Below, piece after piece: positions 57,315 through 62,304 of a DNA stretch of 64,000 nucleotides. Positions within the stretch are counted from its first letter, which is position 1. Every line of letters starts with the position of its first letter. Position numbers and translations under genes: made by a program. The stretch covers positions 1-64,000 of the forward strand of contig JANXSF010000021.1 of assembly GCA_025352795.1 (NCBI GenBank), written 5' to 3'. The notes under the pieces were generated by a model. The model had not been told where the DNA came from. It saw only the letters and a list, made by a program, of their open reading frames with translations, and searched no databases. Origin of the DNA: Acidobacteriota bacterium (GTDB lineage Bacteria > Acidobacteriota > Terriglobia > Bryobacterales > Bryobacteraceae).

Positions 57315-60300
57315 ATGGCTTCAGAACTTTCACGGCGCGGATTCCTGGCTGGCAGTGGCACGGCTGCTGCAACTACTTTCGGCTTCAATTTGGAAGCGGC
57401 CACTGCGGTTGCTAAAGAGCTCAAAATTGCTCGCACCACGCAGACGCATAGCATCTGCCCATACTGCGCTGTGGGTTGTTCCGTTGTCATCCACACCATT
57501 GGTGACAAGGCCCAAAACGTGAAGCCCGCAGTGGTGCACATTGAGGGCGATCCCGAAAGTCCAATTAACCGTGGGACTCTCTGTTCAAAAGGCGCATCGC
57601 TCAAAGAATTCGTCAATAGCGATACACGTCTCACTCGCCCCCTCTACCGAGCCCCAGGTGCTTCCGAATGGCAAGCCATTTCCTGGGAAGATGCGTTTAC
57701 GAGGATGGCCCGTCGCATCAAAGATTCTCGCGATGCCGGGTTCGAAGAAAAAGATGGTCAAGGCCGCGTGGTGAATCGCCTAACCAACACTGCCATGATC
57801 GGCGGCTGTACTGACACCAACGAAGTGAATTACCTGTTGGGAAAATTCCGTTTCGGCATGGGCATCATCGGTTACGAAAACCAGGCCAGGCTTTGACATG
57901 GACCCACGGTGGCCAGTCTGGCTGCCACATTCGGTCGCGGTGCAATGACCAACGGTTGGACCGACGTTGCCAATGCCGATGTTGTTCTTGTCATGGGAGG
58001 CAACCCCGCCGAGAATCATCCAGTAGGTTTCCGTTTTGTGATGGAAGCCAAGCGTAAGCGCAAAGCCAAAATTGTCTGTGTTGATCCGCGATTCACTCGC
58101 ACCGCAGCCGTCTCCGATTGCTATGTGCCTATTCGTTCCGGTACGGACATCGCATTCCTTGGCGGCATCATTCACTATTCCCTCCGTAAGGGACTTTATC
58201 AGGCCAATTACGTCCGCCAACATACCAACGCCAGCTTCCTGATCAACGAAGGTTTCGGATTCGACAACGGCCATTTCAGTGGTTGGGATGAAGCGAAGAA
58301 TTCTTACGATAAATCCACGTGGCAGTATGAACTGGACGCAAACGGTCATGCCAAATTGGACCCCACGTTGGAACATCCACGATCTGTGTTTCAGTTGATG
58401 AAGAAGCACTATTCCCGTTATACGCCTGAAAAAGTGGCTGAAATCTGCGGCTGCACTGCGGAAGAGTTTACGAAAGCTGCGGCCATTATCTGCACCGCTG
58501 CCGCCGAAGATAAATCAGGAACGGTGCTTTATGCTTTGGGCTGGACACAACATAGTTTTGCCGTCCAACTGATCCATGCTGCAGCCATGGTGCAATTGCT
58601 GATGGGCAACATTGGCATGCCCGGCGGTGGAGTCAACGCCCAACGCGGCCACGCTAACATTCAAGGCGCAACGGACATGGGTACATGGAATACTCTTCCT
58701 GGATATTTGAAAATTCCCAGGGCCAACATGGCGTCGCTGGATGACTACCTGAAAGCCAACACGCCGAAAGCGTTGCGCCCCAATTCATTGAACTATTGGG
58801 GCAACACTCCCAAGTTCATGACCAGCTTGTTGAAGGGTTACTATGGCGACAATGCCACCAAGGAAAACGGCTTTGGCTACCAGTGGATTCCCAAGGCTGG
58901 CGAGACTGAAAATTATGGCTGGGGTTACATGTTTGAACGAATGTTGGATGGGAAAATCGATGGCCTGATTTCCTTCGGCATGAATCCTGTGGCCAATGGT
59001 CCCAACACTACAAAGATGCTGGCGGCCCTGTCCAAATTGAAGTGGATGATTGTTGCCGAAAATTTTGAAACGGAAACTTCTGCATTTTGGAATGCTAAAA
59101 AGCTAGCTGAAAAATATTATCCAGCCACGGGTGAACCTTCTACCATTGCAACTGAAGTGTTCCTGTTGCCTGCCTCCTGCTTTGCGGAAAAAGATGGCAC
59201 GTTCGTCAATTCCTCCCGCTGGTTGCAGTGGAAAGATGCGGCCCTTGATCCGCCCGGTGATGCCAAGCGTGACCAGGAAATCATTGGCCAACTCTACACC
59301 CGCGTTCGCAAGCTCTACGAAAAAGAAGGCGGTAAAGCGGCTGAGCCGTTGATGAACATGCAATGGAATTACGCCACGCCATTGTCCCCTTCATTAATCG
59401 AAGTGGCCCGCGAAGTGAACGGCCGTGATCTCACCACAGGCAAGCAGTTGAACGGCTTCGGCGAATTAAAGGACGATGGCACCACGCTGTGTGGCAACTG
59501 GATTTATTCCGGATCGTGGACTGAAGCCGGCAACAACATGGCCCGTCGCGGTCAGGACGATCCTACAGGACTGGGGCTTTATCCCAACTATAGTTGGAGC
59601 TGGCCCGCCAATCGTCGCATTCTCTACAACCGAGCTTCGTCCGATGTGGATGGAAAGCCGTGGGATGAAACACGTGCTCCGCTACGTTACCGAAACGCGC
59701 GCTGGGTGGGGGATACGCCCGATTACAAAGCCGATGCCAAGCCCGATGCATATGGTTCGTTCATCATGCTGCCCGAAGGCGTCGCCAAATTCTTCGCTGC
59801 AGATCTTGTGGAAGGGCCGTTCCCGGAACATTATGAACCAGTGGAATCTCCAGTAGAAAATGCTTTACACTCCAGCGTGAACGCCAACCCTATGGCCAAA
59901 ATCTTTCATGCTCCCATGGATAAGCTGGGTACGTCGAAAGACTTCCCCTATGTTGGCATCACCTATCGTTTAACTGAGCATTTCCACTACTGGACGAAAA
60001 ACACCAAGGGCAGTTCCGAACTGCAAACCAACTTCTTCGTAGAAATTCCCGATGGCTTGGCCAAGGAAAAAAGTATCAAAAATGGCGATCCCGTGCGTCT
60101 TTCCACTGCCCGCGGCCATGTCGATGGACCTGCCCTTGTCACTAAGCGATTCCGTGGTTTGCAAGTCGGCGGCAAGACTGTTTACCAAGTGGGCGTCCCC
60201 ATTCATTGGGGTTTCGTAGGACGTGTGAAGGGTCCACTGATTAATAATCTGACAGCCTCTGTGTACGATCCAAATTCCGGCACACCGGAATACAAGGGTT

Positions 60301-60326
60301 TTCTGGTTAATCTGGAGAAAATCTAG
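57315..60326 (+). CDS. fdnG: Formate dehydrogenase alpha subunit, selenocysteine-containing
   Basis: A 1003-residue molybdopterin enzyme that oxidises formate. A Tat signal (SELSRRGFLAGSGTAAATTF) exports it. The Fe4S4 cysteines are 48, 51, 55 and 90 (CPYCAVGC ... GTLC). An in-frame TGA at 57894-57896 is Sec194, in ENQARL-Sec-HGPTVASLAAT, just as in E. coli FdnG. Reading past it, the frame continues to 60326 (GRGAMTNGWTDVANAD and beyond). A SECIS hairpin lies right after the TGA. Without readthrough the product would be a useless 193 residues. Confidence 0.95.
57911..57923 (+). promoter_or_regulatory. SECIS hairpin of the formate dehydrogenase gene
   Basis: GGCC (57911-57914), loop AGUCU (57915-57919), GGCU (57920-57923), 14 bases after the TGA. 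As I recall it, E. coli fdnG has AGCA-AGUCU-UGCU at the same place, so the loop is the same and the stem differs by paired changes. SelB would bind it. Confidence 0.75.
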
Positions 60327-60327
60327 C

Positions 60328-61119
60328 ATGCAGACAGTTGCCAAACTCATCGACACTTCTCTCTGCATAGGTTGCAAGGCGTGCGAAGTGGCTTGCCAGG
60401 AATGGAACGATCAGGAATTTACGCTTGGTACGTTCGGCGGCACTTACCAGACCAAGCCTGAGCTGGAACATAATTTTTGGAACCTCATCAAGTTCAATGA
60501 ATATGAGACCGATGGCCAACTTTCCTGGCTCATGATGAAGTATCAGTGCATGCACTGTCAGGACGCTGGATGCATGAAAGCCTGTCCCGCGCCTGGTGCC
60601 ATTGTGCGACTGGACAACGGCACGGTGGATTTCAATCACGATAATTGCATTGGTTGCGGCTATTGCATTACCGGTTGCCCGTTCGATGTTCCGCGCCTCA
60701 GCCCCACCACTAAGAAAGTATATAAGTGCACGCTCTGTTCTGACCGAACAGCGGTTGGTCTGGAACCGGCTTGCATCAAAACCTGCCCTACTAACTGCCT
60801 TACTTTTGGGACGCGCACTGACCTGTTACGCAAAGCCGAAGATCGTGCAGTAGAACTGCAAGCAGACGGTTCCACACATGCTGGCGTCTACAATCCGCAA
60901 GGCGTGGGCGGCACCAACGTGATCTATGTTTTGAAGGATGCCTCCAACCCTGAATCGTATGGACTCCCCAAAGATCCTACAATTCCCTGGACTGTTTCAC
61001 TGTGGAAAGGTCCAGTGAAATTGCTGGGCTCGGTAATTTTCTTAGGCGGCATACTAGGAACATTTTTCCATTACATCCGCTTCGGCCCCAAGCTTGAGGA
61101 GGAACATCCCGATGATTGA
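60328..61119 (+). CDS. fdnH: Formate dehydrogenase beta (iron-sulfur) subunit
   Basis: A 263-residue protein with four Fe4S4 clusters: CIGCKACEVAC (13-23), CMHCQDAGCMKAC, CIGCGYCITGC and CTLCSDR with ACIKTC. A C-terminal membrane helix (LLGSVIFLGGILGTFFHYIR) anchors it. It passes electrons from the alpha subunit to the membrane cytochrome. It starts 1 base after the fdnG stop and overlaps fdnI by 8 bases. Confidence 0.95.
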   Translation: MQTVAKLIDTSLCIGCKACEVACQEWNDQEFTLGTFGGTYQTKPELEHNFWNLIKFNEYETDGQLSWLMMKYQCMHCQDAGCMKACPAPGAIVRLDNGTVDFNHDNCIGCGYCITGCPFDVPRLSPTTKKVYKCTLCSDRTAVGLEPACIKTCPTNCLTFGTRTDLLRKAEDRAVELQADGSTHAGVYNPQGVGGTNVIYVLKDASNPESYGLPKDPTIPWTVSLWKGPVKLLGSVIFLGGILGTFFHYIRFGPKLEEEHPDD

Positions 61120-61732
61120 CCGTTTCAATATCAAAGAACGTTTCATCCATTGGATGGTAGCGATTTGCTTCATTTACGCAGCATTATCGGGCTTGGCCAT
61201 GTGGTCGCGACATTTGTTCTGGATCGCAACCGTGTTGGGTGGCGGGGAAACCGTCCGCGCATTGCATCCCTGGGGTGGAATTATTTTTGCCTTGGCCCTT
61301 GGCTTCATGTTCCGCAACTGGGCGTCGCAAATGAAGTTGGATTCTGACGACAAAGTGTGGCTGAAAATGTCCCATCGTTATGCGATGAATGATGAGGCTG
61401 GGGTGCCGCCATCAGGCAAATATAATGCCGGTCAGAAAATGTTGTTCTGGATGCAGTCCGCATTCACACTGCTGTTATTTCTAAGTGGAATGATTTTATG
61501 GTTCCCGGAAATTATGCCCCGCACGTTGCGTTTAGGAGCCGTGTTGGTGCATCCTTTGGCGGCCATTGGCTCCATTGGCGGTATCATTCTACATATCTAT
61601 ATGAGCGCCTTCGCTGTGCCTGGATCCTTGCGGGCTATGACCCGTGGATTTGTCACACCAGGCTGGGCCAAAGCGCACCATCGAAAATGGTTTCAACAGA
61701 CAACGAAAATAGAAGACGAACGCGCGCGATAG
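61112..61732 (+). CDS. fdnI: Formate dehydrogenase gamma subunit, cytochrome b
   Basis: A 206-residue membrane cytochrome b556 that passes electrons to quinone. It has four helices, with His ligands in ERFIHWMVAICFIYAALSG and VHPLAAIGSIGGIILHIYMS. ATG 61112 has GAGGAGG about 9 bases upstream, better than starts further 5'. Its end overlaps the fdhE frame by about 46 bases if ATG 61687 is used for that gene. Confidence 0.93.
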   Translation: MIDRFNIKERFIHWMVAICFIYAALSGLAMWSRHLFWIATVLGGGETVRALHPWGGIIFALALGFMFRNWASQMKLDSDDKVWLKMSHRYAMNDEAGVPPSGKYNAGQKMLFWMQSAFTLLLFLSGMILWFPEIMPRTLRLGAVLVHPLAAIGSIGGIILHIYMSAFAVPGSLRAMTRGFVTPGWAKAHHRKWFQQTTKIEDERAR

Positions 61733-62304
61733 CTTTGGCCGACCGCTACCCGGCATCGCGGCAAATTCTGGAATTTTATGCTGCACTCATCGGGTTCGAT
61801 TCCGATTGGCCAACGCTGCGCGCCCGCCTACTTGAAATTGCGCCAGAACCAATGCAGCGTGCAGCGGCACTTCAACAGCAGCCACAAGGCATCTTCCTTA
61901 GAATTCTCTCCCGTCTCAATCCCACAAAAATTACACCTCAGCAAAACAATGAATGCCCCAACTGCGGCAACCTTCCGCAATGCGCAGTGCTGCGTGAGGA
62001 AGGGCAAGGGCATTCGCTATTTCTGGTTTGCTCTGCATGCACCCACGAATGGAACTTTCCTCGCAGTGAGTGTCCTGCTTGTCTTATGACCGATGAAAAA
62101 CGACTTGGATTTTACACTGCCGAACAGTTCCCCCACGTGCAAACGCTGCTATGCGAAACTTGTCGTTCCTACTTGCACATCATCCATTGCGGCGTAGATC
62201 CGCAGGCTATTCCCGATGTAGATGAACTGGCTTGCACTCCGTTAGATATTTGGGCCATGGAACAGGGTTATACAAAGCTGGTTCCTAATTTAGCCGGTTT
62301 ATAG
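61687..62304 (+). CDS. fdhE: Formate dehydrogenase accessory protein FdhE
   Basis: A 205-residue cytoplasmic protein that checks and matures formate dehydrogenase before export. It has the four CxxC metal knuckles: CPNC (in ECPNCGNLPQC), CSAC (in VCSACTHEW), CPAC and CETC. The N-terminus is helical. ATG 61687 (MVSTDNENRRRT) is used and overlaps fdnI; TTG 61735 right after the fdnI stop is an alternative. It is the last gene of the operon. Confidence 0.9.
   Translation: MVSTDNENRRRTRAIALADRYPASRQILEFYAALIGFDSDWPTLRARLLEIAPEPMQRAAALQQQPQGIFLRILSRLNPTKITPQQNNECPNCGNLPQCAVLREEGQGHSLFLVCSACTHEWNFPRSECPACLMTDEKRLGFYTAEQFPHVQTLLCETCRSYLHIIHCGVDPQAIPDVDELACTPLDIWAMEQGYTKLVPNLAGL

Follow-up and report, generated by a model that had tools for sequence, protein, structure and literature searches.

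The fdnG locus

The window, by which we mean the whole analysed stretch of 64,000 nucleotides, harbours fdnG, the gene of a formate dehydrogenase-N alpha subunit, at 57315..60326 (+ strand). Its frame is open throughout except for one in-frame TGA at 57894..57896 (+ strand; codon 194), and the complete product comprises 1003 residues including a putative selenocysteine, U194. As the initial annotation had stated for TGA 57894, gene calling with translation table 11 divides fdnG into an ORF of 193 amino acids (57315-57896) and a second one of 805 amino acids which starts at GTG 57909; the continuity of the FdnG sequence on both sides of the TGA, which reads ENQARL-U-HGPTVASL, is likewise as described there. 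The product matches the profile TIGR01553 over its whole length (positions 2-1009 of 1009) with 1345 bits at a cut-off of 814.2, and E. coli FdnG (1kqf_A) with 1125 bits, residues 13-1002 being aligned. In this alignment the TGA of codon 194 lies opposite a residue printed as X in the 1kqf sequence, which is the selenocysteine, and the following residue is a histidine in both proteins (U194-H195 compared to X-H). From the codon we read residue 194 as selenocysteine and infer the insertion of selenium at this position. The N-terminal SRRGFL presumably constitutes a Tat-type signal motif.

Downstream of fdnG, the gene of the iron-sulphur beta subunit, fdnH, is located at 60328..61119 (+ strand; TIGR01582, 360 bits, cut-off 334.7). 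It ends in an ordinary TGA, so that TGA also serves as a stop codon here. It is followed by fdnI, encoding the cytochrome b gamma subunit, at 61112..61732 (+ strand; TIGR01583, 175 bits, cut-off 115.85) and by an fdhE-like accessory gene at 61687..62304 (+ strand). The start of the latter was taken at ATG 61687, the profile search having run from 61690. Its product attains 55 bits with TIGR01562, which is below the cut-off of 187.65, and the match is confined to the C-terminal portion of the family (profile positions 169-300 of 305); the gene at 61687-62304 may code for a short or divergent FdhE.

The SECIS element and its apical hairpin

Directly behind the UGA, the Rfam model SECIS_3 (RF01989) finds a full-length match (model positions 1-59) at 57891..57949 (+ strand). 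Its score of 65.1 bits is only 2.1 bits above the gathering score of 63; since the E-value amounts to 6e-13 for the window, the match is more than a chance hit. It is the sole match reported for the genome, where 150 of 2097 first-look candidates were scored. The element includes an apical hairpin, GG-U-GGCC-AGUCU-GGCU-G-CC, at 57908..57926 (+ strand), which was delimited by covariation, column counts and the fold of 57894-57931. The loop AGUCU occupies 57915-57919, and the base equivalent to U17 is U57910, which faces G57924.

With the first base of the hairpin stem at 57908, its distance from the TGA is 11 bases if measured from the last base of the codon and 14 if measured from its T; the 14 bases given in the initial annotation hold only for the latter count. 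That annotation had further described an E. coli-like SECIS loop whose stem differs from that of E. coli by compensating bases. The likeness holds for the loop as well as for U17, G23 and U24, but not for the lower apical stem, which seems to adopt another register and has a G opposite U17. As to the compensation, judged against E. coli fdnG (L124), one of the two changed upper pairs is indeed altered on both sides (A-U to C-G), but in the other a single side has changed (A-U to G.U), and G57924 falls outside the E. coli pairing scheme.

Folding of the region, which had been proposed as a check, lent the hairpin no support beyond that of shuffled sequence. The stretch 57894-57931 folds into it at -12.0 kcal/mol, an energy attained by 58 of 200 shuffles, and in stretches of 46, 71 and 59 bases the minimum-energy fold differs from the hairpin (121, 175 and 87 of 200 shuffles as good, respectively). 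Thus, none of the four stretches surpasses its shuffles in folding energy. The corresponding stretches of E. coli fdnG and fdhF behave likewise (39 and 60 of 200 shuffles as good). Folding energy was dropped as evidence for a SECIS because it fails to separate the element from shuffles, the E. coli elements included.

For comparison, at least 595 stretches were obtained by pattern matching, at least 592 of them encoding a relative, and the best 80 of those were kept. Two loci proved to be duplicates (L123 of L037 and L117 of L051), and the tests were repeated without them, leaving 90 distinct rows; E. coli fdhF (L125) was excluded from all row counts. Paired changes were counted on 58 aligned rows, 57 of them distinct. 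Among the distinct ones, 38 carry C-G and 19 carry A-U at the apical pair 24-30, and the pair 21-33 occurs as G-C, A-U, C-G or G.U. Altogether, 33 cells of the apical stem are changed on both sides. In 500 shuffles, a control which ignores the relatedness of the rows, such cells number 9.3 on average, and in six slid controls there are at most 6. With RNAalifold the upper stem is obtained, whereas the lower stem of the Rfam model, in whose outer helix only 76% of the cells are paired, is not. The bases equivalent to U17, G23 and U24 are unchanged in all 92 rows. The alignment indicates that the apical stem is kept by paired changes and that U17, G23 and U24 are kept as such.

A further constraint appears at the level of synonymous change. 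Among 21 close sequences, the ten codons after the TGA show a synonymous difference of 0.282, with an average of 0.543 elsewhere; 977 other windows were compared, and all of them lie higher. Of longer windows, 0 of 968 (13 codons) and 22 of 956 (17 codons) are as low. The set of close sequences (22, or 21 without the duplicate) was chosen by hand and consists of the window, loci of at least 70% identity and similar family loci. If the window is instead combined with 21 loci assigned by title to Acidobacteriota or a group thereof, no other window is as low at any length (0/977, 0/968 and 0/956 for 10, 13 and 17 codons). In the full set of 90 distinct rows the respective numbers are 70/977, 149/968 and 317/956. 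The low synonymous change behind the TGA is clear within the lineage but weak in the mixed set.

The surroundings of U17

According to a review (PMC8659212), U17 and G23 are binding sites of SelB, and in the SECIS of E. coli U17 has to lie within a bulge. In 62 of the 90 distinct rows the two closing pairs are formed as in E. coli fdnG (two G-C pairs in 60, G-C plus G.U in 2) and U17 is a single bulged base. In the remaining 28 rows, among them the window, a G also stands where the partner of the second G is expected; this G lies opposite U17, and the closing pairs would be displaced by one base. The outer pair of these shifted rows is G-C in 21, U-A in 2 (both sides changed) and G.U in 1, and it is unpaired in 4. 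A G opposite U17 is present in 17 of the 21 loci titled Acidobacteriota, the other loci bearing it being titled Myxococcaceae, Deltaproteobacteria or Terrabacteria or originating from family genomes. The G coincides with an alanine in place of proline or serine at the respective codon, and a constraint on the protein may therefore explain its presence. We consider the shifted geometry as suggestive only. That many Acidobacteriota and some of their neighbours possess a distinct fdnG SECIS subtype, in which U17 is offered to SelB within a U.G pair or a symmetric internal loop rather than as a single bulge and to which SelB has adapted, is a tentative idea that we rate as rather unlikely. If it were true, SelB of this lineage may work poorly on SECIS elements of the E. 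coli type and vice versa. The shifted geometry, if real, would offer a natural system in which to test what feature of U17 SelB recognises.

The same geometry raises the question of whether fdnG might be a selenocysteine gene by descent whose SECIS, bearing the G opposite U17, functions only weakly in this organism, most ribosomes terminating at codon 193. The bulge demanded for the E. coli element, the narrow margin of the Rfam score and the poor energy folding speak in its favour. Yet, the arrangement recurs in the 28 rows mentioned above, U17, G23 and U24 are invariant, and synonymous change over the hairpin is very low in the close sequences. In addition, pN is low behind the TGA: in five sequence pairs pN ranges from 0.15 to 0.26 and pS from 0.69 to 0.95, both before and after this codon (pS is saturated in nine of the ten comparisons, such that dS is not estimable and no omega is given). 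A largely truncated product is accordingly very improbable.

Conservation of the TGA codon

Among the matches listed, the nearest relatives of fdnG are found in metagenome-assembled genomes of Terriglobia and Bryobacterales, the first twelve showing 70-77% identity, which makes an acidobacterial source close to Bryobacterales very likely. Wherever the tblastn mapping, which did not require a TGA, extended over the site, the codon proved to be TGA (85 of 85 loci). These loci, which span Acidobacteriota, Proteobacteria and others, comprise the best 80 relatives and five of ten family-genome loci, one of them (L123) being the duplicate of L037. In the five other family loci, which lie on the opposite strand, and in E. 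coli fdnG the TGA falls into the same alignment column; as these six were located by a pattern starting with TGA, they support the position only.

Within the family, 64 of 150 genomes, including the one studied here, contain an FDH-N match above cut-off. By hand count, 63 of them have a single TGA in the frame of the match; it lies inside the match in 56 genomes and inside an adjacent match in the same frame in 7, its exact place having been verified for the 10 fetched loci only. In the 64th genome (G147) the gene is distributed over two contig pieces, the N-terminal one of which contains the TGA. A selenocysteine formate dehydrogenase is a common trait in this lineage, and the present gene is an ordinary member of a well-known kind.

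We would like to note that one locus, L106, from a record titled Chryseobacterium, carries an fdnG SECIS of enterobacterial appearance, its 59 bases being identical to those of several Enterobacter and Serratia loci. The record perhaps derives from a contaminated assembly.

A formate dehydrogenase gene that has died, split by a nonsense mutation or a sequencing error, would be divided by ordinary gene calling just as fdnG is. However, the recurrence of TGA at the same codon throughout the 85 loci of Acidobacteriota, Proteobacteria and others, the SECIS_3 match behind it and a pN well below pS on either side of it leave this explanation with a negligible probability.

Selenocysteine machinery in the genome

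The genome searched for sel genes comprises 6.05 Mb in 140 contigs and is 96.6% complete; the window lies on contig C12. The initial annotation had predicted selA, selB, selC and selD to be present and had named their absence as a refutation of its reading. All four were found above the curated cut-offs. The tRNA-Sec gene selC (C12:150616-150705; 67.6 bits, cut-off 47), whose anticodon is UCA according to ARAGORN, is situated about 93 kb from the TGA of fdnG. The selB gene (C22:9900-11717; 387 bits, cut-off 242.25) encodes a protein which matches the selenocysteine-specific elongation factor of 5lzb over residues 2-604. For selA (C7:42145-43437) 493 bits were obtained at a cut-off of 267.9 and for selD (C79:76278-77201; in L021:1489-2511) 365.5 bits at a cut-off of 125. 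Each of the four genes resides on a contig of its own and over 9 kb away from a contig end, so that there is no sel operon at these places.

With this complete pathway, the adjoining fdnH ending in TGA and the X of 1kqf, the selenocysteine, at the aligned position, and with nothing found in its favour, a genome-wide reading of TGA as another residue (e.g. tryptophan) or general readthrough has next to no probability. The view that fdnG encodes a selenocysteine formate dehydrogenase, as originally annotated, is sustained by the alignment of its TGA with that X, the invariance of the codon among the mapped loci and the four sel genes. That 57315-60326 is one gene, fdnG, encoding a standard selenocysteine formate dehydrogenase, is in our judgement hardly open to doubt.

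The selD gene has an in-frame TGA of its own at codon 15, where E. coli SelD carries a cysteine. For a stretch of 61 bases at and behind this TGA, only 3 of 200 shuffles fold as well; searching the locus against Rfam returned no SECIS family up to an E-value of 5. Probably, selD is a second selenoprotein gene of the genome. The gene of the tRNA selenouridine synthase, selU, was looked for in the same genome and not found.

Across the family, selA is above cut-off in 124 of 150 genomes, namely in 55 of the 64 with FDH-N and in 69 of the 86 without (hand counts; Fisher p 0.39). The co-occurrence of selA and FDH-N was dropped as a line of evidence because selA is too common in the family. In the genomes with selA which lack an FDH-N match, other selenoproteins probably maintain the selenocysteine trait. 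Conversely, nine FDH-N genomes are devoid of selA above cut-off; six of them possess selB above cut-off and the other three partial matches to it. In G111 and G147 (both of one genus), G030, G095 and G142, which are 92-99% complete, an FDH-N with TGA is accompanied by selB, but not by selA, above cut-off. G111, G147 and G133, which belongs to the same genus, show no selA match whatever. For most of these FDH-N genomes the lack of selA probably reflects assembly gaps.

Proposed mechanism and significance

The continuous frame, the conserved TGA, the SECIS match, the four sel genes and the neighbouring fdnH and fdnI are directly seen, and they outline a pathway of the following kind. SelD would supply selenophosphate, with which SelA would convert Ser-tRNA(Sec) to Sec-tRNA(Sec). 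Together with GTP and Sec-tRNA(Sec), SelB would bind to the hairpin behind UGA 57894 and deliver selenocysteine upon arrival of the ribosome at this codon, insertion and its efficiency being assumed by analogy to known relatives. Judged by its relatives, the fdnG product would be the catalytic subunit of a membrane-bound formate dehydrogenase of the FdnGHI type which faces the periplasm. As in these enzymes, its selenocysteine is expected to ligate the active-site metal, molybdenum or tungsten, and the electrons of formate would pass via FdnH and FdnI to quinone.

According to a 2006 survey, FdhA and SelD are the most widespread bacterial selenoproteins, FdhA being present in 67 of 75 organisms that use selenocysteine (PMC1794560). 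In another source, selenoprotein genes are reported to be usually mispredicted (PMC5330540). The accessible parts of the literature on selenocysteine, formate dehydrogenase and Acidobacteria or Acidobacteriota (PMC1794560, PMC12013277) offered no description of the gene, which does not disprove that one exists. The importance of the present case lies mainly in annotation: standard gene calling cuts a formate-oxidising enzyme of this lineage in two and would likewise deprive selD of its start.

Comparison with known systems

The match to Rfam SECIS_3 (RF01989) covers model positions 1-59 above the gathering score, but the lower apical pairs seem to be in a shifted register. With E. coli FdnGHI (1kqf; b1474-b1476) the window shares the same three subunits in the same order. 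The TGA of E. coli fdnG occupies the aligned codon (196 there, 194 here), the hairpin follows at an equal distance, and the loop AGUCU as well as U17, G23 and U24 are common to both elements. In contrast, 11 of 59 bases of the SECIS differ, the window having a G opposite U17. Unlike in E. coli FdnGHI, an fdhE-like gene directly follows fdnI, and the gamma subunit fails to reach the cut-off of either E. coli-type model, PRK10639 or PRK10179. The alpha subunits of 6sdr and 8cm4, which stem from Desulfovibrio, contain selenocysteine, too, and align over residues 6-1003, but with about 881 bits they score lower than 1kqf with 1125 bits.
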